64,000 nt of DNA from assembly GCA_963920635.1 (NCBI GenBank), contig OY987298.1, forward strand, positions 83,523,454 through 83,587,453. The letters run 5' to 3'. Below, one piece after another: positions 5,127 to 55,088 of this stretch. The notes beneath the pieces were generated by a model. That model was given only the letters and a program-made list of their open reading frames with translations, was not told where the DNA came from and ran no database searches. The position numbers and the translations under genes are program-made. Each line of letters starts with the position of its first letter. Within the stretch, counting starts at the first letter, position 1. The stretch is from Pseudeuparius sepicola. Taxonomy: Eukaryota > Arthropoda > Insecta > Coleoptera > Anthribidae.

Positions 5127-5843
5127 CTAAATATACTTTTTAATTTTTTTAGCTATTTTACTTTGAGGTTCACCTTGCTTACGTTTATTTGATGTATCAA
5201 ATTTTGTTTCTTGAAGTTTATAATTGAGAGATTTTATCCTAATAAATACTCGTTGTCGAACAAAGGTTTTTATTAATTTTTGTTCGATTTCCGGCATTTT
5301 TTTAGAAACATAATTAGTGGTTTTACTAATTATTTCATTTTTAAAAAAAATGACTCGCCGTGTAGTGTATTAAAAAACTTGTCCATTTTTTCAACCTGAA
5401 CTGTCCATTCTGCAGATGGACTTATTAACCCGCCAAATGATAAACTTTGGAGCCAGCATGGAATTGCGTATGAATGTAAATTTAATGGCTCCATATTTTT
5501 ATTGTATTGGCCCAAATGCGGAAATTCTTTTAGGTGTTTTTTTTGCTAGAAAGCCAGCTATATAAATTAAGCCGTCTTTTTCCTTAGGGCTTCTAAGGGA
5601 GCCTACAGATGAAGCATAACTACTAGTACTACTAGTACTAGTAACTTCTAATGTTGAGGTATTTATTTTTGCTCGTTTTAAAAAACTAGTTAGCAGGTAT
5701 TCTTCTAGTTCCGAATCATCAGGTTTTTGGACATTCGTATTTGTTTCGATTACACCTGGATTTTTGCCTAACAAAATCATTCGCATCCGGTATACACAAT
5801 TGAGTGGAGACGGGTGGTCATGTAGGTCTCCTCTTGTTCTCAA
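5127..5843 (-). pseudogene. P-element transposase, C-terminal exon
   Basis: This exon starts just after the acceptor TTTCAG (intron 5844-5901). It encodes the C-terminal region typical of THAP9/P-element transposases: RTRGDLHDHPSPLNCVYRMR, then ILLGKNPG, a serine-rich spacer, and DGLIYIAGFLAKK. The frame changes near 5500-5515, where the family signature continues as WLQSLSFGGLISPS. It changes again near 5340 at a run of T, after which a basic tail (MPEIEQKL, KTFVRQRVFIRI) runs to TAG at 5127-5129. The two frameshifts at or near simple runs mean it cannot be translated as one chain. The role in an intact element would be part of the nuclear cut-and-paste transposase. Family membership is clear; function is lost. 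Confidence 0.85.
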
Positions 5844-5901
5844 CTGAAATAATTAAAAATAAACACAATTCAAAATTTACTCACATTTCTACATTCTACA
5901 C
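5844..5901 (-). other. Intron (58 bp) in P-element transposase
   Basis: On the minus strand the exon ends with CAG, followed by GTGTAG, and the intron closes with ATTATTTCAG. Removing it joins the motif ENLFSQ to RTRGD, which are adjacent in P-element transposases. The intron contains stops in the incoming frame. Confidence 0.8.
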
Positions 5902-6795
5902 CTGGGAAAATAAATTTTCAAGGCAGTCCTGATTTAGACGATGAGTTATAATATACGCTATATTATATCTTTGCTTCATATCATCATATAGATTTTGTAG
6001 TGAAGTTGTGAACATAATAATACCTTTTTGGAACACTTGCATGCTGCGTTTCCCTTTACAAAGCATTCCTTTTATAGTCCCTTTCATATCTTCGAGAACA
6101 TTTTTTTGCAGCTCTAACTGAACTCCATATGGCCTTTTCGTTGGAATTTTTGCGGTGGTAGTATACGAATTCATTATGTCGAACCAATTGTTGGTTAACT
6201 GTATAAAATTTGCAGCATTTCTTGCTAATTGCTTATTATTTCCAGGCAAATACTGTTTTAATGCTGTGGCAGTGGTGTGCGAAAATAACTCTGTTGCTAA
6301 ACAAACATTTTGTCGCCGAGTTTTTTCAAAATTTATGTGAAGAGGATGTAGTTTATAACATGAGCTTATTTCAGATTCGTTATTTTCTATTAACATTTTA
6401 ACTGGTTCTTTGTTAACTAAAACGTTTTCATTTAAAATAAACCCTTTGTCAAGAAACCAATTTCTTAATAATTTCAACAGATGTCGTACATCAGCCATAA
6501 AGTAAATATTATTTTTCGTCATGGGATGTTCAAAGGAAGGTCGGTCCATTAAAACACCTAGCTCCTTCCATAACCCCTGATTACCACTACCACAGTCAGA
6601 TACAACAGCAACAACCTCATAAGTTATTTCGTGCAGTCTGATTATAATTTCTTCTAATATTTCTTTTGTCATCTCTTGGTCAAATCCAATATAAACTGGT
6701 TGTTTCCATCCATCAAATAAACCACGAGCCATTACTACCTGCATATATGAATGGGGCCCTACAATTTCATCTTCTTTCTGGTCAAATTCGTTGTA
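5902..6795 (-). pseudogene. P-element transposase, catalytic core (3' part of exon 2)
   Basis: This is an uninterrupted frame of about 298 codons. It opens inside a coding block at YNEFDQKEDEIVGPH and continues with the P-transposase core VVMARGLFDGWKQPVYIGF, then VAVVSDCGSGNQGLWKELGV, the DVRHLLKLLRNW block (RNase H-like fold with inserted GTP-binding region in the family) and the terminal QDCLENLFSQ. The Met at 6744 is internal; homology begins upstream at 6795, where the sequence stops abruptly at the inserted segment. No stop lies inside, so this is the best-preserved part of the gene. It cannot be expressed as a full transposase in its present context. Confidence 0.9.
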
Positions 6796-17685: not shown

Positions 17686-18097
17686 TGTTATATCCGACCT
17701 CAAGCATCACCTTGATCATAACCTTGTTTTTACCCTTGATTCTGTTTACTGTTGGATATTATGTTCTCATTCTCTATTGTTCAAAATGCTTACTACAAAG
17801 ATATCATTTTCCATTGGATATTGTTCTAGAATGATTACTAGAACATATCATATTCCTTTTGAGTATTGTTAAAACTTGCTTACTGCAAGAATTGCAGAAT
17901 TTGATCTTCCCTTTGTCTTTATATTCTTTTCCCATGAGAACCACAACACCTCAGCATAACAGATCTGTATAAATAGAACCTAGTAAAGTAAGAGTGTTAA
18001 TTCTAGTCTTGTCTGTAGTCTAAGCCGAAACTCTGTAACTCGCGTTACTCAAATAAAAGTTTTTTAAAAAGTCTTCGTCTTCACGTCGCCCGTAACA
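17686..18097 (+). repeat. 5' LTR of errantivirus copy 1
   Basis: It begins TGTTATATCC and ends GCCCGTAACA, so it has TG...CA ends within a TGTTA...TAACA inversion. TATAAATAG is a likely TATA box about two thirds along. CAAATAAAAG near the end is the probable polyadenylation signal. It is 412 bp. Confidence 0.95.
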
Positions 18098-18100
18098 ATT

Positions 18101-18118
18101 TGGTGTCAGAAGTGGGAT
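18101..18118 (+). other. Primer-binding site for tRNA-Leu
   Basis: TGGTGTCAGAAGTGGGAT begins three bases after the LTR. It is complementary to the 3' end of a tRNA-Leu ending in CCACTTCTGACA plus CCA. Reverse transcription would start here. Confidence 0.85.
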
Positions 18119-18436
18119 CCTCGATAAAAGGGTCTTCAACGAGGGAGATCCGGAGGCACTTAGAAGGACAGTCTCCTCGGGGGTCACCACATCACTACGA
18201 TTGGAGCCAGCTGAAAAGGGTCTTCGACAGGAAGATCCGGAGGCACTAAGAAGGACAGTCTCCTGAGGCCAGCATCCAGCAACAACAGCAGCATCAACGA
18301 CATCCAGCGAGCATGAAGTTACCTATTGTAAGTGAAAAACTTGAAGTGAATTTTATTTGTGATTTTTTTTTTGAACTTTCTACGTTGCTATTATTGAACT
18401 TTCTACGTTATAACGATATTACCTTTTCATTTCAAC
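18119..18436 (+). other. Leader between primer site and gag
   Basis: It contains two degenerate copies of a module with GGGTCTTC, GATCCGGAGGCACT and AAGGACAGTCTCCT, about 100 bases apart. The same duplicated leader is present in copy 2 (46202-46519). It could serve packaging or translation; that is inference. Confidence 0.6.
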
Positions 18437-19633
18437 ATGCCGAATAACGAAGCTATAAACTCTAATGTAAACAATGAAGCAAACGCTTCAAATAACGACG
18501 AAGTACCATTTAAATTAAGCGAAATATTTTCTATCATCCCTGAATACGATGGGGATCAAATCAATTTAAATACTTTTATCATTGCATGTGATAGGGCCAT
18601 GCAAATGACTGTTGGCGACCAAGCCATTTTACTTGTTATAAAAATTAAAAATCAATTAAAGGGACGTGCAGCCCAACTCATTAATTCAAGAGATTTGAGT
18701 ACCTGGCGCGAAATCAAACAATTACTTAACGTTCATTTCGGAGATCCTCGCGATCTAACTTCATTAATTCAAGATTTACAAAGAATGTGTCAATCCCAAA
18801 ATGAAAATGCTTTGACTTTTGTAGGCAGAGTTCAAACTCACTGCTCGAAAATGTATGCCGCAATAGGAAAACAAAGCCTTCTCACTAGGGAACAAAAAGA
18901 ATCGCAAGCTACCTTAATCGATGGCATGTGTTTAAATACAGTTTTGACAGGTTTAGAACCAAGAATAGGGCAACTAATTCGTGCTAGCAATCCACCAAAC
19001 ATGATGGATGCTATAGCTTTAATTAAGAGAGAATTGCAACTTTCTTATTTTGAAAATCAAAAATTTCAGAGGCAAAATCGTGTACCAGTCTTCAATAATA
19101 ATATCAAAAGAACCAGTAATAATTTTCCAAAATTTTGTAATTATTGCAAAAGAAATGGACATACTATCAATGAATGTCGAACTAAAAATCAAAATAATTA
19201 TTACAGAAATGGTCCAAATCCTTCTAGCTACTCTAACAATTTCCAAAATAACTCCCAAAGAAATAATTTCTCCCAAAATAGGTTCCATCAAAGACCATCT
19301 TTTCCTCAGCAAAATAATCTTCAAACTCCTTCTTTCCAACCTAGGAATCACCCTCAAAACTTCCAACCAAGAAATCAACCTCCTAGAAATTTTTCTAATA
19401 ATATTCCTAGAAACAATTTCCCAAGAACTTTTAATAATAATTCAGGTTTCCAGCCTTCTAATCAAAATTTTACTCCTAGATTCCCAAATTCAAATCCAAA
19501 TAACCAAAATAGAACTCCCCAACAACATTATCTGGGCCAAAGCGAAAATTTTCAATTAACAGCCTCGTTCCAGAATCCTATTCCCAACTTCAAGAATCTT
19601 GGTATGACCAATACGGACCAAACGTTTGCATAA
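18437..19633 (+). CDS. gag: Errantivirus gag polyprotein (398 aa, intact)
   Basis: The frame starts at MPNNEAINSNV and is uninterrupted for 398 codons. Residues about 30-200 are helical capsid-like sequence (IIPEYDGDQINLNTFI, then LKGRAAQLINSRDLSTW), typical of gypsy-type Gag. A CCHC zinc knuckle, CNYCKRNGHTINEC (C-x2-C-x4-H-x4-C), lies at residues 234-247. A long Asn/Gln/Pro/Phe-rich low-complexity tail follows. Gag assembles intracellular particles and the knuckle binds RNA. The pol frame overlaps the last 120 bases in the -1 register. This is the only intact major gene of the element; copy 2 has a stop and a scrambled segment in the same gene. Confidence 0.92.
   Translation: MPNNEAINSNVNNEANASNNDEVPFKLSEIFSIIPEYDGDQINLNTFIIACDRAMQMTVGDQAILLVIKIKNQLKGRAAQLINSRDLSTWREIKQLLNVHFGDPRDLTSLIQDLQRMCQSQNENALTFVGRVQTHCSKMYAAIGKQSLLTREQKESQATLIDGMCLNTVLTGLEPRIGQLIRASNPPNMMDAIALIKRELQLSYFENQKFQRQNRVPVFNNNIKRTSNNFPKFCNYCKRNGHTINECRTKNQNNYYRNGPNPSSYSNNFQNNSQRNNFSQNRFHQRPSFPQQNNLQTPSFQPRNHPQNFQPRNQPPRNFSNNIPRNNFPRTFNNNSGFQPSNQNFTPRFPNSNPNNQNRTPQQHYLGQSENFQLTASFQNPIPNFKNLGMTNTDQTFA
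19546..19552 (+). promoter_or_regulatory. Probable -1 ribosomal frameshift site A-AAT-TTT
   Basis: In gag register the bases read A AAT TTT, a canonical X-XXY-YYZ slippery heptamer. The -1 frame first opens after a TAG at 19510-19512 and gag stops at 19631-19633, so the heptamer lies inside the short overlap. The same heptamer is retained in copy 2. A downstream structure was not modelled. Confidence 0.75.
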
Positions 19634-22600
19634 ATACCGTTGACAATAGTAACTTATATTATATTAAAGATAATACCGATAAGTACAAAATTTTAATTGA
19701 CACAGGAGCTGGTATTTCAATTTTCAAACCAGAGACGGTTCAGCAATTTTTAAATCGATGTCCAGAAAATTTTCAAATTAAAGGTATTTCTGGCCAATCA
19801 ATTCCTATTACTGAAGCGGTATTTGTTTCTTTTACGGGTCCTCTTTCTCCCCATAAAGTTTATATTTGCGATCTAGATATAGGATTCGACGGAATTTTAG
19901 GCGCTGACTTTTTAGAAAGGTACGGTGCAGTAGTAGATTTTAGGAATAAACAATTAATTACGTACTATAAGGTACACGAATTACTCAAAGACGGAGATGA
20001 ATTAAACGAGTTAACGAATAATAATGATAATAATAATCGAGTTGTTTATAAAAGACAAGTTAATGTTGACGAAAGATACGATAGCCTTCATATAAACGCT
20101 TATGAACGAAATAATAATAATAATAATGATTACACGGAAAATATAAATAATTTTGAAAGCGAAAATACGAGTTATAATATAAATCAGGTTACGATAGAAC
20201 CGCGTTGCGAAAAAATATGCAAGTTTCATACGAATAGATATACGAATAAAGAAATGATTTTATGCGCACAACGAGTAGAAAAGGTATACGTGCCAAATGC
20301 TATAGTAAAAATAAACGAAGACGGTAATTTTTATACGACAATATTAAACGCTAATGCCATAACAAAGGATATTTGTTTCGAAGAATTTGAATTTGAGCCT
20401 TACATTAAAGAAACGAACGCTAGTGCTAATATTATTTGTAATTTTAATAAAACGAAAAGCAGAGTAGAAGAAATAAAAGAATCATTAAGGCTAGAACATT
20501 TAAACGAAGAAGAAAAAGAATTAATTACTAATTTATGCTTGAATTTTGAAGATATATTTTACTTTGACGGAGATTTCCTAAGTTTCACTAATGAAATAAA
20601 ACATACTATCGATACAGGCGACGCTAAGCCAATTTTTACTAAATCTTATCGATATCCACAAGTTCACAAGGAAGAAGTAAAAACACAAATTAATAAAATG
20701 CTTTCTCAAGGAATAATTAGACCTTCTGTTTCACCATGGTCGTCCCCAGTATGGGTCGTTCCAAAAAAATTAGACGCTTCAGGCAAACAAAAATGGAGAA
20801 TCGTAATTGATTATCGGAAATTAAATGAATTAACAGTTAATGACAGGTATCCACTGCCTAATATTTCAGATATATTAGATCAGTTGGGTAATTGCCATTA
20901 TTTTACTACTTTAGATTTGGCTTCTGGTTTTCAACAAATTGAAATGAATCCAGAAGACATTTCGAAAACTGCTTTTTCCGTTGAAAATGGACATTTCGAA
21001 TATTTACGTATGCCCTTTGGCCTTCGTAATGCGCCCTCAACCTTTCAGAGGGTTATGGATAATATACTAATGGGGATACAAAACGAAAAGTGCTTAGTTT
21101 ACATGGACGACATTATTATTTATTCTTCCACAATTAATGAACATATCTCTCGTATCACTGAAGTTTTTCAAAGATTAAGAAATTCAAATCTAAAAATACA
21201 GCCAGATAAGTGTGAATTCTTACGAAAAGAAGTAATTTATTTAGGACATGTTATTACACCTGAAGGGGTCAAACCAAATCCACAAAAAGTACAAGCTGTT
21301 ATCGATTTTCCTCAACCTGCCAATACTAAACAAATTAAACAATTTTTGGGTCTTACTGGTTACTACAGGAAGTTTATTCCAAACTTCGCAAAAATGACAA
21401 AGCCTTTAACTCGACTTTTAAGAAAAGACGTACCATTTATTTTTGATAAAGATTGTCGTGAATCTTTCGAACAACTTAAAAATGCATTAATAACTTCACC
21501 AATTCTAATATATCCTAATTTTGAAAAATAATTTGTTTTAACTACAGATGCAAGCGCTTTTGCTGTAGGCGCGGTACTTTCGCAAGGACCTGTTGGAAAT
21601 GATCTTCCCATAGCATACTTTTCAAGAACCTTAAGTCCAGCAGAAATGAAATATAGCGTTATAGAGAAAGAACTTTTGGCAATAATTGCTGCCGTAAAAA
21701 ACTATAGACCTTATCTTTTCGGACGAAAATTCTTATTGGTTACAGATCATAGACCTTTAACCTGGCTTTTCTCAATAAAAGATCCCGGTAGTCGTTTAGC
21801 ACGTTGGCGACTTAAATTAGAAGAATATAATTATCAAATAATTTATAAACCTGGAAAAATTAATCGAAATGCCGACGCTTTATCTCGAATCAAAATCAAT
21901 CATATAAAAGAAGCTGTTTCCTTTCATACTTCCCTAGACGAACCATCTACTTCCCATGATAATCCTCAAGACATTGACCCGCCTATTGACAATAATGAGA
22001 CTGACGAAATTGCTATAATCTGTAATGAATTTGACAGATTTTTTGATCTATACAAGACGACTTCAATGATCGACTATTCTAAAATCCAATATACAAATAA
22101 TCAACTTTTAGACAAAACACACAAGGACATTGTACTAATTTTTCAACAAGACAAATTAACAGACCTTCACGAAAAAGTTATTGATGATTTACTTGAGCTA
22201 AATCCTGATTTTAACTATAATAAAGCAAATGTTCTTTCCAGTCAAACCGTAGCTAAAAGAAAATATTATATAATTCCTGTTCCTTTTAATTTTGAAACCG
22301 CAATACAAGTACTCTTCATATCTCTTTATTACAGTAAAGATATATTCGAAGAAAACAAAACTTATTACATTGAAAACCATCCAGATTTTCCAATTTTAGA
22401 AATGTTTAATTTTTTGTTCTCAGATAAAAATTTCCAACTAACAATTTGTCAGAACATTGTGACTATACCAGACGAAGACCAAATACCTATAATAATAGAT
22501 CAATTTCATTCAGGCAAGACAAACTTACATCGAGGAATAAACGAAAAAATTAGACGCATCAAACAAAAATATAATTGGACAGGACTAACTAAAGACGTCG

Positions 22601-23572
22601 AAACATTTATTCGGCAGTGCGAAATCTGCCAAAAGACAAAAATTTGTAGACAAAACTTGGACAGTCCCTTAGTTATTACCGAAACTCCTAAAACTCCTTT
22701 CGAAAGAATAAATATCGACATCCTAGAAATCCCAGTAAAAAATAATATCCTTACCATAAGAGACGAAATAACAAAATTTACCCAAGCTTATGCACTTCCT
22801 AATAAAACAGCGAGATCTGTAGTAGACGCTCTTTTACTCTATTTTCAACATTTTGGAACTCCTTTAAGAATCCATTGCGATGTAGGTAAAGAATTTAATA
22901 ATCAATTAATGAAAGATCTTTGTAAATTATACAATATAAAATTAACTTTCTCTAGTATTAGTCATCCGCAATCAAATGGCTCCTTAGAAAGATTTCATGC
23001 CACCTTAACTGAAATGATACGCGCGTGTAGTACAGAAAATCCTAACGAACACCCATTTCAAATGCTCCCTTACGCTTGTATATCGTATAACAATTCTATA
23101 AATAAAACACACGGCTTTACTCCTTACGAATTGCTATTCGGTCACACCTCGTCTCGACCTCCAGAAGTTTTGTATAATCAGCAAGAATTAATCTCTAAGT
23201 ACGTTCGCGATTTAAACAATAAAATAAAGCATTATTATGAAGTGGCAAGAAAGCGTACGGATATGCGCAAACAAAAGGCGAAACAGCGATTTGATACACA
23301 CATTTCGGAGCAGCGACAATTTCGCGTAGGAGAAAAGGTTTATGTCAAGGAGTCCCAAATAAAAAATAAACTAGCTAACAAATTTAATGGACCTTATAAA
23401 ATTAAAGAAATTTATACGAATTCAGCTTTGCTACATAACCCAATTACTAACCAAACCACAAAAATGAATTTTGATATGCTAAAGAAATGTCACGAATTGG
23501 AGGAAGAAGAACTAACGGTTAAAGAATTCTTTTATACTCTAGATCGAAAAATCCCTATTGAAAATAATAACG

Positions 23573-24009
23573 TTTCCATTGAACTGGGCAACTTATTTGA
23601 TGCCCCTGAAAATATTTCATTAGCTCACTGTGTATCTAAAGATTTAGAAATGAATGCAGGAATTGCAAAAGAATTTAAGAATAAATTTGGACACGTAGAT
23701 GAACTAAAAAATCAAAATAAGTCAATTGGTGAAATAGCAGTACTTCAACTTCCGACAAGAAATATTTATTATTTAATAACTAAAGAATTTTTCTATTATA
23801 AACCAACTTATGCTAATTTATTTAATTGCTGAAAGGAATTACGAACAAATTGTCTCGAGAGCACTGATGAAAAAGATAAAATTATAGCTATACCCAAGTT
23901 AGCTTGTGGATTAGACAAATTAGATTGGGACACAGTTCTCCCTATGATCAAATATATTTTCAAAAATACTGATATTAAAATAATTTGTTATATCGAACCA
24001 AGTTCCTAA
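23573..24009 (+). pseudogene. TARG1/OARD1-like macro domain fused to the end of pol
   Basis: About 145 codons in frame with integrase resemble the macro domain of terminal ADP-ribose protein glycohydrolase. Visible blocks are the beta-strand GNLFDAPENISLAHCVSKD, MNAGIAKEFKNKFG, SIGEIAVLQL, IYYLITKEF with a following KPTY, and IPKLACGLDKLDW. The Lys of LITK and the Asp of CGLD match the two catalytic positions known in TARG1 (Lys84 and Asp125 in the human enzyme). MNAGIA is the ligand-loop motif. The family removes ADP-ribose from Glu/Asp side chains and also deacylates O-acetyl-ADP-ribose. In this copy TGA 23830-23832 falls between the Lys and Asp blocks. Role in the element is unknown; counteracting host ADP-ribosylation is one inference. 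Confidence 0.88.
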
Positions 24010-24027
24010 TTCTGAAACTTCGTTACA

Positions 24028-24028
24028 G
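24028..24028 (+). other. Possible splice acceptor for env mRNA
   Basis: TTCGTTACAG ends here, 22 bases before the first env ATG. Errantivirus env is normally made from a spliced RNA. The donor, expected in the leader or early gag, was not assigned. Confidence 0.4.
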
Positions 24029-24050
24029 ATTTTCTTTGTTCGCTACCGCT

Positions 24051-25897
24051 ATGGCACAATATACACTGCGACCAATTAATAACACCATAGGCGTGTTCTA
24101 TCAAGAGCAATCCGGACTCAAAATTTCTAATGACAAGTGGAGTTTATTGGTGTATAAAGACATTTCATCTCTAAAAACAACATTCGAAAATAATAATAAA
24201 ATTTTAGAAAATATGCAATTTATAATTCAACCAAAAGACGTACGAATGGCCGCCTTTCTAAGCGAAGTTAAGTCACATCTCACTTTACTAAATCAACTTT
24301 CCGAAAACATTGCGCTCAAATTTGAAGAATTAGCTATTGATGTAAGAAGATATAAAAGAGGTTTAATTAATGGTTTAGGGTCAGTTTGGAAATTTATTGC
24401 CGGAAATTTAGACGCTTCAGACGGACAGTATTATAACGATTGTATCGACAAAATTAACAGAGACGAACACGAATTAGAAAAATTAATGAAAAAACAAATT
24501 TTAGTAACTACTTCAGTTATCAAAAACTTTAACGACTCTATCAACAAATTACAAATTGATGAAATTACTTTTAATAATGACATAAAACAAATCGAAAATT
24601 ACATTTATAACATTTCTGATAATTTTAATTATTACACTGCAAAATTACAAGTTTTAGAGATTGCCGAAAGACTCCTAGAATCCTATACCTTTATCGAAAG
24701 CAATTTAAATGACATTCTAAACTCGATTACTTTTGCAAAGTTACATATTATTCACACGTCAGTTATAACTCCTGAAGACCTGGTTCATCATTTGCAAATA
24801 ATCGCTCAAACTTTAAACAAAAATAATTTGCCCTTAACTCCTCAACTTCTAAATGTTGCAACTTATCTTGATTTTATAGAACTAAAGGTTTTTCAAACAG
24901 AAAATAGACTTGTTTTTATATTAGACATTCCTTTAGTAGAACCTCAATGGTATACTCTTTATAGAATTTATCCTATTCCAATTTTCGACAATAAAACTGG
25001 ATTTTATCACATGGTATCCACTGATACTAAATTTGTAGCAAAAAGCGATGACCCAACTCTCTATGTAATTCTCTATGATATAAAAAATTGTAAAGAACAT
25101 TTGATTTAATAATGTGCAAAGATTTATATCCTACTCCTATTGACTCACATTCAAGATGTGAAGCTCAATTATTAGAAGTAAAAACCCATTTACCTAATAC
25201 TTGTGACATAGTCACAATTTCAATTGAAAGTTACAATGTACAATTGATTCAAGAGAATCAATGGTTAATAATTTTAAGTGAAATATTTCCTATAACTATT
25301 AAGTGCAAAAATCAAAATCCTTTGACTATAATGCTAGACAAAACTTCAATTTTAACGTTAAAATCTGAATGCATTGCTTATATTGGAAGTACTAAAATTC
25401 AAACGAAAAATTTAAATAAATCTAATCAAACCTATAAATTTCACCCAATTAATATACCATTTGAATGTTGCAAAGAAACTCCAAATAAACTAAAATATCC
25501 TGACTTAAAACCTTTACAACTAAATAAATTTAATTATGACGATTTAAATGTCGCAAAGCATAAATTAGACGAATATGCAAAGGATCTTGATAATATTATT
25601 AACGAACCAACTGTAAATAAGTATACGCCAATATTGACATATCTATCCATTGCTTTAATCATACTTTTAATTATTGTGTACTTTTATTTTAAATGTAAAA
25701 AGTCTAAGAACATTAAAATAGGCGTTATTACTACTAATAACGGAGACGATCCTCCACAACCTCCTAGAACACGAAATCGCGTTTTTCAAAATTTAAGAAA
25801 ATTTGTTACTGTCAAAAGAAGACCTTCGTATAGATTGGACGAACCTCGCGAAGAAGAAGAAATTGAACTAAATTCTAATACTAAAACATATGCCTAA
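24051..25897 (+). pseudogene. env: Errantivirus env, fusion-protein type, one frameshift
   Basis: The first ATG is at 24051; upstream codons in the same frame (RFSLFATA) look like part of a signal peptide that splicing could supply. A furin-type site RYKR-G lies near residue 103, followed by GLGSVWKF and LDASD, the pattern of F-type fusion proteins shared by errantiviruses and baculoviruses. A long coiled-coil-like region rich in Asn, Lys, Leu and Ile follows. The frame stops at 25107-25109. Comparison with copy 2 shows a small deletion there; coding resumes in another register at 25112. The C-terminal part has a membrane span (LSIALIILLIIVYFYF) and a basic then acidic tail. An intact protein would be a membrane glycoprotein. 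No repaired sequence is given. Confidence 0.88.
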
Positions 25898-25934
25898 TTT
25901 AATGTCAAAATTTGTTAACACAAATTTTTAATAT

Positions 25935-25945
25935 AAGGGGGAAGG
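25935..25945 (+). other. Polypurine tract
   Basis: AAGGGGGAAGG directly abuts the 3' LTR and would prime plus-strand synthesis. Confidence 0.85.
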
Positions 25946-26357
25946 TGTTATATCCGACCTCAAGCATCACCTTGATCATAACCTTGTTTTTACCCTTGAT
26001 TCTGTTTACTGTTGGATATTATGTTCTCATTCTCTATTGTTCAAAATGCTTACTACAAAGATATCATTTTCCATTGTATATTGTTCTAGAATGATTACTA
26101 GAACATATCATATTCCTTTTGAGTATTGTTAAAACTTGCTTACTGCAAGAATTGCAGAATTTGATCTTCCCTTTGTCTTTATATTCTTTTCCCATGAGAA
26201 CCACAACACCTCAGCATAACAGATCTGTATAAATAGAACCTAGTAAAGTAAGAGTGTTAATTCTAGTCTTGTCTGTAGTCTAAGCCGAAACTCTGTAACT
26301 CGCGTTACTCAAATAAAAGTTTTTTAAAAAGTCTTCGTCTTCACGTCGCCCGTAACA
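25946..26357 (+). repeat. 3' LTR of errantivirus copy 1
   Basis: It is 412 bp and matches 17686-18097 with one visible difference. It is followed by the TGCA duplication at 26358-26361. Confidence 0.95.
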
Positions 26358-33224: not shown

Positions 33225-34330
33225 GAAAATTAGCATTGAGTCTTATGGAAAACACACACAAATTTCGTCTTATTGAGGGGCCTTTTCAGCCCTAAAAAAT
33301 AAGCTTTGTCCTGATTGGTTGAGCATCTCATAGGGAGAGACTAGGGGGTGTTCATCCCCAATCTTTTCAGTCGTGTTGATGCTGTTGAGAGGTGAAGTCG
33401 ACTTTGTGAATTGAACAACCCATTTCCTAAAAGCAAACAGCGGCAGTTCAATTTTTTCTGTCATCAAGTTTCCAATATCTGTAAAAGTTGCAAATTAGCA
33501 TTGAGTCTTACGGAAAACACACACAAATTTCATCTTATTGGGGGGCCTTTTCAACCCTAGTAAATAAGCTTTGTTCTGATTGGTTGAGCATCTCAGGTGA
33601 GACTATAAAAGGAGGTGTTCATCCACAATTTTTTTTCAGTCGTGTTGATGTTGTTGTAAAGTAAAGTCGAATTTGTGAATTGGACATTTTTGACAAATTT
33701 TACGAGAAAACCTTTTTTGTTTGAATTAGTTTAACATTTTTAAGTTTTGTGAGAATTGTAAACATTTTCTTGGAATTTCTTGAACGTATAAAAGTGAAAG
33801 CACATTTCCTCAGTCGTGCTGTTGCTCTTGAAGGGTGAAGTTGTGTTTGTGAATTGGACAACACATTTTGTGACAAGTTTTTCCGAGAAACGTAATCTTT
33901 TTTCTTAGAATTTGATGAAGGCGTTTATAAAAAGGAGTTCCCTCGACCCATTTCCTCAGTCGTGTTGTGCTTGTCTAAGGTAAAGTCAATATTTTGATTT
34001 GGACAACGTTTTACATAAAACGTAAACAAATAGCGCATCAACGTATATATTCATATTTTTCTAGCGAGATATCAAAATTTAACACCCTTATTAATCAAAC
34101 ATAGTCCCCAGGTTGAGGCGTGCACAATTTAAAAAATCATTCCTTTCTAGGTTGAGCTAAGGAGAAAAAGGACTACATCGCTTGGTGAGTAAGTAAAAAA
34201 TCAAAGAGGACGCCTGTTGGTTTGTACAGATTGGAACAACACAAATTTCTCCTTATCGTGAACTTCCTGGTATTTTCGTCTTATATAAGGAGGTGCTTGC
34301 CACTCATTTTACAGACTCTCTGATTGTTGT
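33225..34330 (+). promoter_or_regulatory. Row of duplicated TATA/initiator core promoters upstream of the DNA polymerase gene
   Basis: Modules repeat with decreasing similarity. Two (33240-33420 and 33500-33690) share ACACACAAATTTCRTCTTATT, CTGATTGGTTGAGCATCTCA (an inverted CCAAT box) and TCAGTCGTGTTGATG. Paired TATA and initiator sites are TATAAAA 33604 with TCAGT 33636, TATAAAA 33787 with TCAGT 33810, TATAAAAA 33926 with TCAGT 33956, and TATATAA 34282 with TACAGA about 31 bases on. The oldest module (TCAGT 33367) has lost its TATA. TCAGT is the arthropod initiator consensus. The last promoter sits just before the ATG at 34341. Confidence 0.65.
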
Positions 34331-34340
34331 GCTTGGAACC

Positions 34341-37300
34341 ATGCCTGCCACAGATGTATTAAAGTACTTGTACTTCAAGATAAGTGGTATATTGGGTCTA
34401 CTTCAGTCATCATACAATATTGAGACTGCCCAAGATAACCTCCGTCGGTGCACCAAGGCCGTTCGGCATATAAAGCACCAACTAAAATCTGCCAAGACCT
34501 TAGGTGAGAGGCAAAAACTAATGACAAATCTAGCCAATGTGAAAACACTACGTACCCAAATTAAACATGAAATAAAACGTGGTGCTGGAGTAAAACCTAG
34601 AAAAGAAACCGCAGAAAAACGTGTAAGCTGGAGCGATTCGGAAACCGCATTTTTATGCCGTATTCGAACTGGTGTCATCTCTAATCTTAAGCACAAGGAC
34701 CGAGGCGAATTCCTTAACGACTGTTTTGCTTTGTTCAAGCGACGTGTTTCCATCGCCTTAAAAAAGTAAGAGGCGGTTAAAATCAATGCAGTGTTCTGCG
34801 GACTATTTGTGTTGCAAAAGGCTGACAGGATTATTGAGGAGTTGAAATATTTTACAACATCTAACGCCCCGGTCTACCGAGACACAAACTTAATCCAATG
34901 GTTCGATCTGCACATAGCAACACCGATTTTAACTCAGCTTCAAGAATTCCAAGAAAGAGACTCTGGTTGGGCGCTGAAGGCTATAGTGAACTTGGGGATA
35001 AATATAAATAAATATACTCCCCTGTTAGGATCTTCATACATAGAGCTACCCGAATCAATCAAGGCAAAACACGCCTGTGTCAACGTGAAGAACGAGGATG
35101 GCCTTTGCTTTGCCTGGGCCGTGATTTCCGCTCTGTATCCAGTTGAAAGAAATCCTCACCGTATAACCAAGTACCCCCACCCTTCATCTGTTTTGAATTT
35201 GGACGAACTACGTTTTCCAATGACCATTAAACAGATCCCAAAATTCGAAAATCTTAACAATATGTCCATAAATGTTTATATTCTGCGAAAGCATCGAAAC
35301 AAGTTTCACACCTTACCTACTTATATCACTAAAAATAAGGTAGACAAACATGTCAATCTTCTAATGATACAGAATGTTTATTATGATGAGGATAATGAAG
35401 AAGGAAATAATGACAGTTCACTTGTACAATATCATTTTTGTTGGATCAAAGACCTTTCTCGCGTCGTTTCAGCTCATCTAAGTAAACACGAACATAAAAA
35501 ATTCTTTTGTGATCGATGTCTTCATTACTTTTACTCCGAGGAAAAGCTAACAACGCACTATGAAGATTGCAAAAATATGAACGATTGTAAAGTTAGGATG
35601 CCAAGTGAAGATCGAAAATTTCCCAAATTTAAGAATTACAAATGTAAGGAAATGGTTCCCTTTACAATTTATGCCGATATAGAAAGTCTGCTTAAAGCGA
35701 CAGACGACAATAATAAGTATCAAGAACACGTACCTTGCAGCATTGGTTATTATATTAAATGCAGTTATGACGACAGCTTATCCTTCTACAGATCATACAC
35801 TGGGCTCGATTGCATGGAATGGTTTTCTAAAGAACTGAGAGGAGTGGCAGAGGATATAGAGACAGTTTTTCTGTGTCCTCTACCGATGGATAGACTAACA
35901 GCAGATGAGAAGATGAACTTTAAGTTAACTACCGTATGCCACGTTTGTGAGAAGCCGTTTACAGCTCAGCAAAGAAAAGTTCGGGATCATTGTCATCTGA
36001 CTGGAAAATTTAGAGGAGCCGCACATGAAGACTGCAACATAAATTATCAAGATACCCATGTTGTACCCATAGTCTTCCACAACCTTTCGGGTTACGATGC
36101 ACATTTCGTTATCAAGAGCATAGCTAAGGATATCGAGGGACGTGTGGAGCTCCTCCCTATTAATAAAGAAAAATATATATCTTTCACCAAACTCACACCG
36201 GAAAATTTGGTCAAGTTCAGATTTATCGATAGTTTCCGTTTTATGGTAGGAAGCTTAGATTCTTTAGCCACCAAACTTTCCGAATACCCAATCCTTAGGA
36301 GCCATTTTTCCGACCTCCCCGAGTCTCGTTTTAAACTTCTTACTCGAAAAGGTGTATTCCCATATGATTTTATGGATTGTATGGAGAAATTAGACCACAG
36401 TCACTTACCACCTAAAGACTCTTTTTATAACAAACTCGAAGAAAGATCGATATATGAAAAAGAGTATGCTCACGCGCAAAAAGTGTGGAACGAATTTGGT
36501 TGTAAAAATTTAAAAGAATATACCGACCTGTATTTAAAAACAGATATATTACTTCTAGCAGATATATTTGAAGCATTTAGAGCGAGCTGTATGAGAACCC
36601 ATAAACTAGATCCCGCTCACTACTATACATTACCTGGGTACACTTGGGATTCGATGTTAAAGTATACAAAAATTGAGTTAGAGTTGCTTACGGATATCGA
36701 TCAAGTAATGTTTGTCGAGAGAGGAATCCGCGGAGGACTCAGCCAATGCTCTAAATGACGCGCCACTGCAAATAATAAATACATGCCTGATTATGATCCA
36801 CAGAAATCTGCAGTATATTTAAGTTACTTTGATATTAATAATCAATATGGATGGGCTATGTCCCAGGCTCTCCCTTTCGGTGGGTTTACATGGTTAGATG
36901 ATAAGGAGATTCAAGGGTTGAATATAGGAAAATTGCCGGACAACTCTGATACGGGGTATTTCCTAGAAGTCGATCTAGAGTACCCTGAGAAACTTCACGA
37001 TAAACATAAAGATTTGCCTTTCTGTCCGCAACATATACAAGGGGATAAGACAGGGGAAAAATTAATGGCTACCCTCCACAACAAAGAAAAGTACGTCATT
37101 CACTACAGGGCACTTAAACAAGTATTAGCAAACGGTCTTGTCCTGAAGAAAGTACGACGTGTACTCGAATTTAAGCAAAGTGCTTGGTTGAAAAGTTACA
37201 TAGATCTAAATACCAGACTTCGTGCCCAAGCCACCAGTGCCTTTGAGAAAGATCTTTACAAGCTTTTTAATAACGCAGTCTTCGGAAAAACGATGGAAAA

Positions 37301-38132
37301 TGTCCGCAAATATTCCGTGGTAACGCTGGTTAACAAGTGGGAGGGGCGATATGGGGCGGAGGCACTTATCGCCAAACCTGAGTTCAAGTCTGCACTGATT
37401 TTTGGTGAAAACCTCGTAGTAATCGAATTAAATAAATGTGAAGTATTCATGAATAAACCAATTTACGTTGGGATGAGTGTTTTGGATCTAGCAAAAACAA
37501 CTCTCTATGATTTCCATTATGGGTACATGCAGCCTCAGTTAGGTGACAATTGCACCATTTTATACACGGACACTGACTCCCTTATTTATGAAATTCGAAA
37601 TAATGATATTTACGAAGTTATGCGTCGAGACTGCTATAAATATTTTGATACAAGCGATTATTCACCAGATAACATTTATGGTATACCTCTAGTGAACAAA
37701 AAAGTTTTGGGTATGATAAAGGATGAAAACAATGGACGGATTATGACGGATTTTGTGGGTCTGCGATCAAAAATGTATACATTTAAAATTTTAAAAGATT
37801 GTGAAGATATGGAAATAGGTAAACTGCGGGAAAATGGATATACTGAAGAGGAAATATTCGAAATAATGTTACATGGTGGAGTTAAAAAGAAGGCGAAGGG
37901 GGTTAAGAAATCCGTCATTAAAAACAAAATAACCTTTGACGATTATGTACAGTGCCTGGAGGAAAATATGGAGAAAACAGTTAATCAGAATTTAATCCGA
38001 TCGGAGAAACATACCGTTTACTCTATAAGACAGCCGAAAATCGCGTTAAGTCCCAATGACAATAAAAGAAAAATTTTACCAGGCTATGAAACACTTCCGT
38101 GGGGCCACTATTCGCAGATGCAAATGGAGTAG
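34341..38132 (+). pseudogene. Protein-primed family B DNA polymerase (Polinton/adintovirus type), two nonsense codons
   Basis: A single frame starts at MPATDVLKYL (first ATG after the TATA and initiator) and is open to TAG 38130-38132 except for TAA 34767-34769 and TGA 36756-36758. Order: a lysine/arginine-rich helical N-terminus; a zinc-finger-like FCDRCLHYF...HYEDC; Exo I YADIES (near 35670); an endonuclease VII-like C-x2-C insert CHVCEKPF with VRDHCHLTGKFRG (35938-36025); Exo II NLSGYDAHF; Exo III YTDLYLKTDILLLADIF; then Pol A YFDINNQYGWAM (36829), Pol B LFNNAVFGKTMENV (37264) and Pol C YTDTDSLIYEI (37563). All exonuclease and polymerase carboxylates seem present. The polymerase would replicate a linear element from a protein primer. 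No integrase, ATPase, protease or capsid gene of that class accompanies it here. Confidence 0.93.
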
Positions 38133-45784: not shown

Positions 45785-46180
45785 TGTTATATCCGACCTC
45801 AAGCATCACCTTGATCATAACCTTGTTTTTACCCTTGATTCTGTTTACTGTTGGATATTATGTTCTCATTCTCTATTGTTCAAGATGCTTACTACAAAGA
45901 TATCATTTTCCATTGTATATTGTTCTAGAATGATTACTAGAACATATCATATTCCTTTTGAGTATTGTTAAAACTTGCTTACTGCAGAATTTGATCTTCC
46001 CTTTGTCTTTATATTCTTTTCCCATGAGAACCACAACACCTCAGCATAACAGATCTGTATAAATAGGACCTAGTAAAGTAAATTCTAGTTTTGTCTGTAG
46101 TCTAAGCCGAAACTCTGTAACTCGCGTTACTCAAATAAAAGTTTTTTTAAAAAGTCTTCGTTTTCACGTCGCCCGTAACA
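45785..46180 (+). repeat. 5' LTR of errantivirus copy 2
   Basis: TGTTATATCC to GCCCGTAACA, 396 bp, with two small deletions relative to its 3' partner. Confidence 0.94.
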
Positions 46181-46183
46181 ATT

Positions 46184-46201
46184 TGGTGTCAGAAGTGGGA
46201 T
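46184..46201 (+). other. Primer-binding site for tRNA-Leu
   Basis: TGGTGTCAGAAGTGGGAT, identical to copy 1, three bases after the LTR. Confidence 0.85.
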
Positions 46202-46519
46202 CCTCGGTAAAAGGGTCTTCAACGAGGGAGATCCGGAGGCACTTAGAAGGACAGTCTCCTCGGGGGTCACCACACCACTACGATTGAAGCCAGCTGAAAA
46301 GGGTCTTCGACAGGGAGATCCGGAGGCACTAAGAAGGACAGTCTCCTGAGGCCAGCATCCAGCAACAACAGCAGCATCAACGACATCCAGCGAGCATGAA
46401 GTTACTTCTATTGTAAGTGAAAAACTTGAAGTGAATTTTATTTGTGATTTTTTTTTAACTTTCTTCGTTGCTATTATTGAACTTTCTACGTTATAACGAT
46501 ATTACCTTTTCATTTCAAC

Positions 46520-47714
46520 ATGCCGGATAACGAAGCTATAAACTCTAATGTAAACAATGAAGCAAACGCTTCAAATAACGACGAAGTACCATTTAAATTA
46601 AGCGAAATATTTTCTATCATCCCTGAATACGATGGGGATCAAATCAATTTAAATACTTTTATCATTGCATGTGATAGGGCCATGCAAATGACTGTTGGCG
46701 ACCAAGCCATTTTACTTGTTATAAAAATTAAAAATCAATGAAAGGGACGTGCTGCCCAACTCATTAATTCAAGAGACTTGAGTACCTGGAGGGAAATCAA
46801 ACAATTACTTAACGTCCATTTCGGCGATCCTCGCGATCTAACTTCATTAATTCAAGATTTACAAAGAATGTGTCAATCCCAAAATGAAAATGCTTTGACT
46901 TTTGTAGGCAGAGTTCAAACTCACTGCTCGAAAATGTATGCCGCAATAGGAAAACAAAGCCTTCTCACTAGGGAACAAAAAGAATCGCAAGCTACCTTAA
47001 TCGATAGCATGTGTTTAAATACAGTTTTGACAGGTTTAGAACCAAGAATAGGGCAACTAATTCGTGCTAGCAATCCACCAAACATGATGGATGCTATAGC
47101 TTTAATTAAGAGAGAATTGCAACTTTCTTATTTTGAAAATCAAAAATTTCAGAGGCAAAATCGTGTACCAGTCTTCAATAATAATATCAAAAGAACCAGT
47201 AATAATTTTCCAAAATTTTGTAATTATTGCAAAAGAAATGGACATACTATCAATGAATGTCGAACTAAAAATCAAAATAATTATTACAGAAATGGTCCAA
47301 ATCCTTCTAGCTACTCTAACAATTTCCAAAATAACTCCCAAAGAAATAATTTCTCCCAAAATAGGTTCCATCAAAGACCATCTTTTCCTCAGCAAAATAA
47401 TTTTCAAACTCCTTCTTTCCAACCTAGGAATCACCCTCAAAACTTCCAACCAAGAAATCAACCTCCTAGAAATTTTTCTAATAATATTCCTAGAAACAAT
47501 TTCCCAAGAACTTTTAATAATAATTCAGGTTTATAGATTTATTTTATTTATTTATTATAGATTCCCAAATTCAAATCCAAATAACCAAAATAGAACTCCC
47601 CAACAACATTATCTGGGCCAAAGCGAAAATTTTCAATTAACAGCCTCGTTCCAGAATCCTATTCCGAACTTCAAGAATTTTGGTATGACCAATACGGACC
47701 AAACGTTTGCATAA
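46520..47714 (+). pseudogene. gag: Errantivirus gag, broken
   Basis: Nearly identical to the intact gene of copy 1, but with TGA at 46739-46741 where copy 1 has TTA. In the Asn-rich tail (47531-47560) a stretch is replaced by an AT-rich run of TTTATTTATT type. That adds a TAG at 47534-47536 and shifts the frame. The CCHC knuckle region is preserved. It ends in the same TTTGCATAA in the shifted register. Confidence 0.93.
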
Positions 47715-50700: not shown

Positions 50701-52084
50701 GCGAAATCTGCCAAAAGACAAAAATTTGTAGACAAAACTTGGACAGTCCCTTAGTCATTACCGAAACTCCTAAAACTCCTTTCGAAAGAATAAATATTGA
50801 CATTCTAGAAATCCCAGTAAAAAATAATATCCTTATCATAAGAGACGAACTAACAAAATTTACCCAAGCTTACGCACTTCCTAATAAAACAGCGAGATCT
50901 GTAGTAGACGCTCTTTTACTCTATTTTCAACATTTTGGAACTCCTTTAAGAATCCATTGCGATGTAGGTAAAGAATTTATTAATCAATTAATGAAAGATC
51001 TTTGTAAATTATACAATATAAAATTAACTTTCTCTAGTGATAGTCATCCGCAATCAAATGGCTCCTTAGAAAGATTTCATGCCACCTTAACTGAAATGAT
51101 ACGTGCGTGTAGTACAGAAAACCCAAATGAGCACCCATTTCAAATGCTTCCTTACGCTTGTATAGCCTATAACAATTCTATAAATAAAACACACGGCTTT
51201 ACTCCTTACGAATTGCTATTCGGTCACACCTCGTCTCGACCTCCAGAAGTTTTGTATAATCAGCAAGAATTAATCTCTAAGTACGTTCGCGATTTAAACA
51301 ATAAAATAAAGCATTATTATGAAGTGGCAAGAAAGCGTACGGATTTGCGCAAGCAAAAGGCAAAACAGCGATTTGATACACACGTTTCGGAGCAGCGACA
51401 ATTTCGCGTAGGAGAAAAGGTTTATGTCAAGGAGTCCCAAATAAAAAATAAACTAGCTAACAAATTTAATGGACCCTATAAAATTAAAGAAATTTATACG
51501 AATTCAGCTTTGCTACATAACCCAATTACTAACCAAACTACAAAAATGAATTTTGATATGCTAAAGAAATGTCACGAATTGGAGGAAGAAGAACTAACGG
51601 TTAAAGAATTCTTTTATACTCTAGATCGAAAAATCCCTATTGAAAATAATAACGTTTCCATTGAACTGGGCAATTTATTTGATGCCCTTGAAAATATTTC
51701 CTTAGCCCACTGTGTATCTAAAGACCTAGAAATGAATGCAGGAATTGCAAAAGAATTTAAGAATAAATTTGGACTCGTAGATGAACTAAAAAATCAAAAT
51801 AAGTCAATTGGTGAAATAGCAGTACTTCAACTTCCGACAAGAAATATTTATTATTTAATAACTTTTTCTATTATAAACCAACGTATGCTAATGTATTTAA
51901 TTGCTTAAAGGAATTACGAACAATTAGTCTCGAGAGCACTGATGAAAAAGATAAAATTATAGCTATACCCAAGTTAGCTTGTGGATTAGACAAATTAGAT
52001 TGGGACACAGTTCTCCCTATGATCAAATATATTTTCAAAAATACTGATATTAAAATAATTTGTTATATCGAACCAAGTTCCTAA
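47627..52084 (+). pseudogene. pol: Errantivirus pol with macro domain, copy 2, broken
   Basis: Same domain order as copy 1. The start is placed at the A-AAT-TTT heptamer retained in the gag overlap. Lesions: TGA 48119-48121 between protease and RT (CGA in copy 1); an indel cluster near 49280-49315, inside the RT thumb, that shifts the frame; and a deletion near 51862 in the macro domain that removes the LITK lysine and shifts the frame. RNase H, integrase (H/H/C/C and D-D-E) and the first half of the macro domain are open between 49316 and 51861. The codon that is TAA in copy 1 (21529) is GAA here. Confidence 0.93.
51655..52084 (+). pseudogene. TARG1-like macro domain, copy 2, broken
   Basis: GNLFDA, AHCVSKD, MNAGIAKEF and IGEIAVLQL are preserved. 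A small deletion after YYLIT removes the catalytic Lys and changes register. The second half (IPKLACGLDKLDW, with the catalytic Asp) is present in the other frame up to TAA 52082-52084, with no TGA at the position where copy 1 has one. The presence of the domain at the same place in both copies shows that it belongs to the element family. Confidence 0.86.
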
Positions 52085-52125
52085 TTCTGAAACTTCGTTA
52101 CAGATTTTCTTTGTTCGCTACCGCT

Positions 52126-53898
52126 ATGGCACAATATACACTGCGACCAATTAATAACACCATAGGCGTGTTCTATCAAGAGCAATCCGGACTCAAAATT
52201 TCTAATGACAAGTGGAGTTTATTGGTGTATAAAGACATTTCATCTCTAAAAACAACATTCGAAAATAATAATAAAATTTTAGAAAATATGCAATTTATAA
52301 TTCAACCAAAAGACGTACGAATGGCCTCCTTTCTAAGCGAAGTTAAGTTACATCTCACTTTACTAAATCAACTTTCCGAAAACATTGCGCTCAAATTTGA
52401 AGAATTAGCTATTGATGTAAGAAGATATAAAAGAGGTTTAATTAATGGTTTAGGGTCAGTTTGGAAATTTATTACCGGAAATTTAGACGCTTCAGATGGA
52501 CAGTATTATAACGATTGTATCGACAAAATTAACAGAGACGAACAAGAATTAGAAAAATTAATGAAGAAACAAATTTTAGTAACTACTTCAGTTATCAAAA
52601 ATTTTAATGACTCTATCAACAAATTACAAATTGATGAAATTACTTTTAATAATGACATAAAACAAATCGAAAATTACATTTATAACATTTCTGATAATTT
52701 TAACTATTACACTGCAAAATTACAAGTTTTAGAGATGGCCGAAAGACTCATAGAATCCTATACCTTTATCGAAAGCAATTTAAATGACATTCTAAATTCT
52801 ATTACTTTTGCAAAACTACATATCATTCACACATCAGTTATAACTCCCGAAGACTTGGTTCATCATTTGCAAATAATCGCTCAAACTTTAAACAAAAATA
52901 ATTTGCCCTTAACTCCTCAACTTCTAAATGTTGCAACTTATCTTGATTTTATAGAACTAAAGGTTTTTCAAACAGAAAATAGACTTGTTTTTATATTAGA
53001 CATTCCTTTAGTAGAACCTCAATGGTATATTCTTTATAGAATTTATCCTATTCCAATTTTCGACAATAAAACTGGATTTTATCACATGGTATCCACTGAT
53101 ACTAAATTTGTAGCAAAAAGCGATGACCCAACTCTCTATGTAATTCTCTATGATATAAAAAATTGTAAAGAACTAGCATTTTATTTAATAATGTGCAAAG
53201 ATTTATATCCTACTCCTATTGACTCACATTCAAGATGTGAAGCTCAATTATTAGAGGTAAAAATCCATTTACCTAATACTTGTGACATAGTCACAATTTC
53301 AATTGAAAGTTACAATGTATTCAAGAGAATCAATGGTTAATAATTTTAATAATTTTAAGTGAAATATTTCCTATAACTATTAAGTGTAAAAATCAAAATC
53401 CTTTGACTATAATGCAAGACAAAACTTCAATTTTAACGTTAAAATCCGAATGCATTGCTTATATTGGAAGTACTAAAATTCAAACGAAAAATTTAAATAA
53501 ATCTAATCAAACCTATAAATTTCACCCAATTAATATACCATTTGAATGTTGCAAAGAAACTTCAAATAAACTAAAAAAAAAAGTATCTTGATAATATTAT
53601 TAACGAACCAACTGTAAATAAGTATACGCCAATATTGACATATCTATCCATTACTTTAATCATACTTTTAATTATTGTGTACTTTTATTTTAAATGTAAA
53701 AAGTCTAGGAACATTAAAATAGGCATTATTACTACTAATAACGGAGACGATCCTCCACAACCTCCTAGAACACGAAATCGCGTTTTTCAAAATTTAGGAA
53801 AATTTGTTACTGTCAAAAGAAGACCTTCGTATAGATTGGACAAACCTCGCGAAGAAGAAGAAATTGAACTAAATTCTAATACTAAAACATATACCTAA
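52126..53898 (+). pseudogene. env: Errantivirus env, copy 2, broken
   Basis: The frame from ATG 52126 passes the point where copy 1 is frameshifted and stops at 53338-53340, after a 7-base deletion relative to copy 1. A further deletion of about 80 bases near 53573 removes part of the pre-membrane segment. The furin-type RYKR-G, the GLGSVWKF block and the C-terminal membrane span (LSITLIILLIIVYFYF) are recognisable. Confidence 0.88.
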
Positions 53899-53935
53899 TT
53901 TAATGTCAAAATTTGTTAACACAAATTTTTAATAT

Positions 53936-53946
53936 AAGGGGGAAGG
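53936..53946 (+). other. Polypurine tract, copy 2
   Basis: AAGGGGGAAGG abutting the 3' LTR. Confidence 0.85.
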
Positions 53947-54357
53947 TGTTATATCCGACCTCAAGCATCACCTTGATCATAACCTTGTTTTTACCCTTGA
54001 TTCTGTTTACTGTTGGATATTATGTTCTCATTCTCTATTGTTCAAGATGCTTACTACAAAGATATCATTTTCCATTGTATATTGTTCTAGAATGATTACT
54101 AGAACATATCATATTCCTTTTGAGTATTGTTAAAACTTGCTTACTGCAATAATTGCAGAATTTGATCTTCCCTTTGTCTTTATATCTTTTCCCATGAGAA
54201 CCACAACACCTCAGCATAACAGATCTGTATAAATAGGACCTAGTAAAGTAAGAGTGCCAATTCTAGTCTTGTCTGTAGTTTAAGCCGAAACTCTGTAACT
54301 CGCGTTACTCAAATAAAAGGTTTTTAAAAAGTCTTCGTTTTCACGTCGCCCGTAACA
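53947..54357 (+). repeat. 3' LTR of errantivirus copy 2
   Basis: 411 bp, followed by TACA (54358-54361). Confidence 0.94.
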
Positions 54358-55080: not shown

Positions 55081-55088
55081 TATATATA

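Follow-up and report, generated by a model that had tools for sequence, protein, structure and literature searches.

A TARG1/OARD1-type macrodomain at the end of pol in a Ty3/gypsy endogenous retrovirus of the beetle Pseudeuparius sepicola, with relatives in other retroelements

TARG1, also named OARD1 or C6orf130, is a free-standing small host enzyme of the macrodomain fold that is reported to take ADP-ribose off acidic residues (PMC4695847), to hydrolyse thymidine-linked ADP-ribose on single-stranded DNA, with K84 as catalytic residue and rescue of cells from DarT lost in a K84A mutant (PMC8501950), and to strip PARP1-added ADP-ribose from single-stranded telomeric DNA at unligated Okazaki fragments and overhangs (PMC11102865). 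Some fish epsilon-like retroviral sequences have extra open reading frames (ORFs) for CNPase or macrodomain proteins (PMC4977317, citing Basta et al. 2009) and are thus retroelements with a captured macrodomain. The dUTPase of retroviruses and of rotifer long terminal repeat (LTR) retrotransposons is likewise a captured cellular enzyme domain whose place varies, retroviruses having it also between reverse transcriptase (RT) and integrase (IN) or after IN (PMC5408684), some orchid Ty3/gypsy elements have captured a modification eraser of the m6A demethylase type (PMC9289625), and the Ty3/gypsy elements known as chromoviruses carry an extra domain, the chromodomain, fused behind the C-terminus of their integrase (PMC3605345). 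Here, a 64,000-nucleotide stretch of the genome of the beetle Pseudeuparius sepicola (contig OY987298.1, positions 83,523,454 to 83,587,453; hereafter the window) is described, in which the last domain of pol of a Ty3/gypsy endogenous retrovirus with a Baculo_F-type envelope is, by sequence and predicted structure, a TARG1/OARD1-type macrodomain. It shares the fold and pocket of TARG1, including the equivalents of K84 and D125, but it is part of pol and not a free-standing host enzyme, and it is broken in both copies found in the window. The fish elements are described as vertebrate retroviruses with additional ORFs (PMC4977317), whereas the orchid eraser acts on methyl groups and is encoded by a separate ORF of plant elements (PMC9289625); the dUTPase is another enzyme with another substrate. 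The macrodomain of DarG, the antitoxin of the DarTG system, differs as a bacterial antitoxin partner of DarT, and no DarT-like domain was named in the Pfam scans of the element pieces. The chromodomain, a chromatin reader and no ADP-ribose enzyme, has a fold unrelated to that of the macrodomain.

In the first of two proviruses in the window (copy 1), the pol frame runs from the C-terminal part of the integrase (NGPYKI...) through a short linker into VSIELGNLFDA...YYLITKEF without a break, and its translation contains the blocks GNLFDA, AHCVSKD, MNAGIA, YYLITK and CGLDKLDW in the order of TARG1. This is what an earlier note, made from the letters of the stretch, had read there; the span it gave, 23573..24009, is right at its end, the TAA at 24007..24009 (+) that serves as pol stop in both copies, and off at its start, the codon frame running from 23572. 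The N-terminal two thirds of the macrodomain (23572..23829, +; 86 residues), which hold the equivalents of H32, S35, G43 and K84, match human OARD1/TARG1 with an E-value of 1.3e-22, and past an in-frame TGA (23830..23832, +) the C-terminal third with the pol C-terminus (23833..24006, +) holds the D125 equivalent in CGLDKLDW, its first 53 residues (23833-23991, same frame) matching the rest of human OARD1 separately with an E-value of 1.8e-7. The proposed TARG1/OARD1-like macrodomain was therefore recovered from each half on its own. The comparison of structures that the note had suggested pointed the same way, as both predicted models of the domain had TARG1 as best structure match, the N piece aligning with human TARG1 (structure 4j5s) over 78 structure-aligned columns at 59% identity and a root-mean-square deviation of 0.8. 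Domain profiles gave weaker matches or none: the C piece matched Pfam Macro (PF01661) with an E-value of 0.0027, under the gathering score and far below the strength of the single-sequence OARD1 match, the slice containing the N piece was not matched by Pfam Macro, and the N piece had no NCBIfam match.

The active-site residues are kept among the aligned domains. In an alignment of 36 rows (A3; human TARG1 numbering), five of which come from elements (P0058, P0012, P0020, P0035 and the window), the equivalents of His32, Ser35, Gly43 and Lys84 occur in 36/36 rows and that of Asp125 in all 35 rows that reach it. We take D125 to be the catalytic partner in TARG1, the Asp working with the Lys to which ADP-ribose becomes linked. 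Both residues are present in 9/9 retroelement proteins found to carry the domain, and because of this conservation the macrodomain of the working ancestors was most likely an active ADP-ribosyl hydrolase. In the window the claim that the pair is present in copy 1 holds as far as the codons go, since both are encoded there on either side of the TGA, and fails for an uninterrupted domain.

The domain belongs to a mobile element. Two proviruses of one family lie in the same orientation in the window (copy 1, 17686-26357; copy 2, 45785-54357) and share 97.5% identity over 7511 aligned columns and 97.9% over a further 780. Copy 1 is bounded by LTRs of 412 nucleotides (TG...CA; 17686..18097 and 25946..26357, +) that differ by one mismatch, with the target-site duplication TGCA just outside on both flanks; the LTRs of copy 2 (45785..46180 and 53947..54357, +), when aligned with each other, show 3 mismatches and 19 gap columns, and TACA stands on both sides of this provirus. 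The two insertions (n=2 only) thus have 4-bp target duplications at alternating pyrimidine-purine sites, a kind of target that errantiviruses prefer. Between the LTRs pol has the order protease-RT-RNase H-integrase, assigned by Pfam except for the protease, recognized by motif only, and Pfam further recognized RT, RNase H, the zinc-binding and core domains of integrase, and an Env of Baculo_F/Gypsy type. On these sequence features the element is a Ty3/gypsy endogenous retrovirus with a Baculo_F-type envelope; the errantivirus assignment of the note stood in so far as it rests on the LTR-bounded pol order, the Baculo_F/gypsy Env and the 4-bp duplications. Rearrangement with a host gene, which the note had allowed for as a refutation, was rejected, as both proviruses hold the domain at the same place between their LTRs.

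Neither window copy encodes an unbroken domain, a point that the note did not make. In copy 1 the TGA separates the Lys (YYLITK) from the Asp (CGLDK), and in copy 2, whose macrodomain region including the stop spans 51654..52084 (+), a 7-bp deletion right after YYLIT has removed the Lys codon and shifted the frame. These lesions are not specific to the macrodomain, because gag, the RT part of pol and env are broken too: the pol frame of copy 1 meets a stop at 21529 and that of copy 2 is interrupted by a frame break, copy 2 has stops in place of two codons of the copy 1 gag frame, and env of copy 1 is frame-broken. Programmed readthrough at the TGA as a feature of the family was rejected, as copy 2 has a sense codon at this place. 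It was also observed that copy 1 has two in-frame pol stops and a broken env although its LTRs differ at 1/412 positions; it may have been moved by the proteins of another copy, or its lesions may be very recent.

The comparison of substitutions between the two copies, from which stop codons and gap-touched codons were excluded so that the lesions themselves do not enter the counts, gave 6 synonymous and 3 replacement changes in the N piece of the macrodomain (pN/pS 0.13, P=0.0035) and 0 synonymous and 2 replacement changes in the C piece, too short alone to tell. Both pieces together, the comparison across copies that the note had proposed, gave a pN/pS of 0.21 (P=0.012), and elsewhere in the element the ratio was 0.14 for RNase H-IN, 0.18 for the RT piece, 0.38 for gag, and 0.14 and 0.49 for the first and second parts of env. 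The macrodomain as a whole therefore shows signs of having been held by selection in the lineage leading to both copies, its ratio falling inside the range spanned by the rest of the element, and for its longer piece the purifying selection resembles that on RNase H-IN.

The search for the same fusion in other pol proteins, also suggested earlier, identified nine retroelement proteins, some of them fragments only, that carry the domain (P0001-P0005, P0012, P0020, P0035 and P0058). The copy 2 domain found three matches among pol-length proteins (P0001, P0002 and P0003), and the P0001 domain found P0001 itself, P0004 and P0005. Pfam Macro scored above its curated cut-off in P0001, P0012, P0020 and P0058 and below it in P0002, P0003, P0005 and P0035, and it was not listed in the scan of P0004; where it was weak or absent, the domain was called from phmmer or profile matches together with BLASTP. 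P0001-P0004, all Ty3/gypsy pols, have the domain after RNase H (NADALSRI or NVDALSRI) and before the zinc-binding domain of integrase, while in P0058 an Integrase_p58_C/SH3_Tf2-1 end, of the Ty3/gypsy integrase kind, is joined to it. In P0005 (source ncbi; 97 member sequences) RT, a PF00075-type RNase_H and integrase precede the macrodomain, which lies at the C-terminal end; this protein was called retroviral-type because of that set and order of domains and on reading of the sequence; the short proteins P0012 (14 member sequences), P0020 and P0035 (source ncbi) have, by reading, a tail and domain as in P0005. This multi-copy P0005 family, whose proteins finish with a TARG1-like domain that retains Lys and Asp, may be of the fish epsilon-like kind. 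Fusion at the integrase end, as claimed for the window, is therefore correct there and is not the sole position: four Ty3/gypsy pols have the domain mid-pol, one at the Ty3/gypsy integrase end, and four retroviral-type proteins at the pol C-terminus. Viral contigs queried with the window integrase-macrodomain, the P0001 and P0005 macrodomains and the window RT yielded no relative.

The note knew of no description of such a domain in errantiviruses, and neither the literature searched, most subscription journals being outside its coverage, nor the top records listed by broader searches contained an account of a macrodomain in the pol of Ty3/gypsy elements or errantiviruses; the main text of a paper on insect endogenous retroviruses (PMC12992720) contains no word starting with "macro". 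A captured macrodomain in a retroelement is thus of a known kind, while its occurrence in Ty3/gypsy elements, at two positions in pol and more than once, appears to be new as far as that literature goes.

The origin of the domain was approached with a domain-alignment search, in which 7993 candidates were scored, 4560 kept and the best 120 listed. Among these best 120 of 4560, entries named OARD1 or C6orf130 have vertebrate or mollusc names as far as shown, and none is insect-named; in one of them, the OARD1 entry of Mytilus coruscus (P0006), part of the domain is apparently duplicated, giving two Macro stretches. A tree was built from 52 domains over 143 columns, comprising nine element rows and 43 of 44 chosen others, without P0007 and the remaining listed matches (among them P0006 and the element piece P0035). 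The vertebrate OARD1 group (branch 100/95) takes in the three rows of the P0005 family, the Ty3/gypsy rows group with the unnamed small proteins P0034, P0047 and P0119 at weak support (89/76), and the window domain does not group with the P0005 family. In approximately unbiased (AU) tests, for which the clades were chosen after the tree had been seen, a single capture for all retroelements, with the nine element rows as one clade, was weakly rejected (p 0.046); the six Ty3/gypsy rows as one clade (p 0.45), the four mid-pol rows as one clade (p 0.36) and a clade of the 22 other vertebrate-group rows (17 named, 5 unnamed) without the retroviral ones (p 0.36) were not rejected. The separate placement of P0005-family and Ty3/gypsy rows and the AU test suggest, with moderate confidence, that the domain was captured twice or more, once near vertebrates and one or more times elsewhere, and capture from a cellular gene or from another element would best explain the window macrodomain, the insect host gene that the note proposed being a conjectural donor.

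The domain may have passed between elements. In the best tree P0001 is the partner of the window (92/74), a pair of P0001 and P0003 not being rejected for the macrodomain (p 0.23), and by BLASTP P0001 and P0003 are 75% identical in RT, 52% in integrase and 44% in the macrodomain, whereas the window N piece is 60% identical to that of P0001; fast change and exchange of the domain would both explain this pattern. The linker preceding the macrodomain in copy 1 (23494..23571, +; predicted helix 23518-23544) is similar to that of P0058. When linkers were shuffled for 21 pairs, the observed similarity was reached in 0/5000 shuffles for window-P0058 and for P0058-P0003 and in no fewer than 196/5000 for each of the other 19 pairs, window-P0003 among them with 490/5000; for window-P0058 a longer cut gave 3/5000 and removal of the six residues adjoining the domain 93/5000, and the piece 23461-23571 as a lone query found P0058 only at an E-value of 21. 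The linker similarity is thus suggestive only; movement of a linker helix and macrodomain as a module within Ty3/gypsy would fit it. We also put forward tentatively, and regard as doubtful, a broader account of recurrent adaptation, in which Ty3/gypsy and retroviral-type lineages would independently have taken TARG1 and this module would have moved within Ty3/gypsy between the integrase C-terminus and the RNase H-integrase junction.

As to function, DNA that is single-stranded or gapped lies exposed during reverse transcription and integration, so that an eraser borne by pol would protect the cDNA or the integration complex. Made within pol beside integrase, the macrodomain would be packaged and travel with the cDNA, where it could remove ADP-ribose added by host PARP-type enzymes from single-stranded or gapped cDNA ends, from integrase or from the chromatin of the insertion site, and reverse transcription, integration or gap repair could then finish. 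That the pol-fused TARG1 domain erases ADP-ribose from these targets is the explanation we favour, at somewhat less than an even chance. Several observations weigh against it. The macrodomain is damaged in both window copies, in copy 1 despite an LTR difference of 1/412, so the domain may be dispensable, at least in trans; the selection test compares two copies with few changes, the C piece contributing no synonymous and two replacement ones; and two positions in pol imply a loose tether, so that closeness to integrase may mean little.

That looseness fits a domain acting freely, as in immune evasion, where the macrodomain would reverse protein mono-ADP-ribosylation by antiviral PARPs in the particle or the infected cell, its link to integrase being no more than a route of expression and packaging. 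Macrodomains of alphaviruses and coronaviruses are thought to counter antiviral PARPs in this way. The domain varies in position, standing at the C-terminus in the window, P0058 and the P0005 family and mid-pol in P0001-P0004, the element has an Env gene, and TARG1 also clears ADP-ribose from acidic residues (PMC4695847). We consider immune evasion an appreciable possibility, albeit an unlikely one; the observations do not clearly separate it from action on the cDNA.

Less likely again is a housekeeping task like that of dUTPase, in which the macrodomain would clear small esters of ADP-ribose, for instance O-acetyl-ADP-ribose or ADP-ribose 1''-phosphate; tRNA splicing yields the second of these, and tRNAs serve retroelements as primers. 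The variable places of dUTPase in retroviral genomes (PMC5408684) and the CNPase or macrodomain ORFs of fish retroviruses (PMC4977317) would be in keeping with such a task, but Pfam scans of the gag, RT, RNase H-IN and env pieces named no other enzyme of the pathway, and a host enzyme would already do the job. We think it slightly less probable still that the macrodomain is a reader, binding to ADP-ribosylated chromatin where DNA is broken and directing integration in the manner of the chromovirus chromodomain: its place after integrase in the window and after the integrase C-terminal part in P0058 would suit a tether, yet four pols have it before integrase, and the catalytic Lys and Asp, unnecessary for reading, are kept throughout the element proteins. 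Finally, a passenger, that is, a chance host segment in decay or a host OARD1 rearranged beside a pol fragment, agrees with the lesions in both copies but is very improbable, because the domain is in frame between LTRs with 4-bp target duplications in both proviruses and its longer piece is selected like RNase H-IN, and because other elements have it in long open frames.

The remaining parts of copy 1, all on the forward strand, are arranged as follows. The gag open frame (18437..19633) has a Retrotrans_gag match with an E-value of 0.0043, below the curated cut-off, and the part of pol at approximately 19684..19960 contains the motifs DTGAG and LGADF in translation, which we take to mark the aspartic protease. 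The RT piece (20254..21528; RVT_1, 3.1e-41) is ended by the in-frame TAA at 21529-21531, and the piece 21646..23571 comprises RNase H, a spacer, integrase (H2C2, rve and C-terminal part) and the linker, with E-values of 2.6e-19 for RT_RNaseH, 1.6e-14 for Integrase_H2C2 and 6.5e-11 for rve. The first part of the env open frame (23985..25109; PF12259, 9e-30; PF07253 Gypsy, 5e-8) overlaps the end of pol, and the remainder of env lies in another frame (25112..25897; PF12259, 1.5e-6). About 730 bases past the 3' LTR of copy 2 there is a third, partial and inverted copy of the same element, consisting of the env end and an LTR (55088-55710, -).

Two further features were noticed in the window. Large open frames at 34293-38132 (+) include an Endonuclease_7 match (E-value 1e-5) and the motifs YADIES and YTDTDSL, which to us recall the type B DNA polymerase of the Polinton/Maverick kind, the second large frame having no Pfam or PDB match. 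At 5499-6744 (-) there are remnants of a P-element-type transposase (TNP-like_GBD, 2.9e-16; TNP-like_RNaseH_N, 2.7e-9; Tnp_P_element_C just under its cut-off).

The presence of a TARG1-type domain in pol suggests that ADP-ribosylation may be a modification which retroelements need to reverse, erasure perhaps helping their copying or insertion, and the repeated finding of one enzyme in this gene, at two positions, hints at a function more strongly than a single fusion would. The domains in open frames (P0001, P0003, P0005 and P0058) make it possible to ask where erasure would take place, on cDNA, on integrase or on host proteins. If the recurrent adaptation outlined above were true, ADP-ribosylation of cDNA or integration complexes would be a standing restriction of reverse transcription in animals, to which the element carries the antidote. 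Confirmation would open the question, which we believe has been little asked in invertebrates, of whether PARP-type enzymes restrict transposons.
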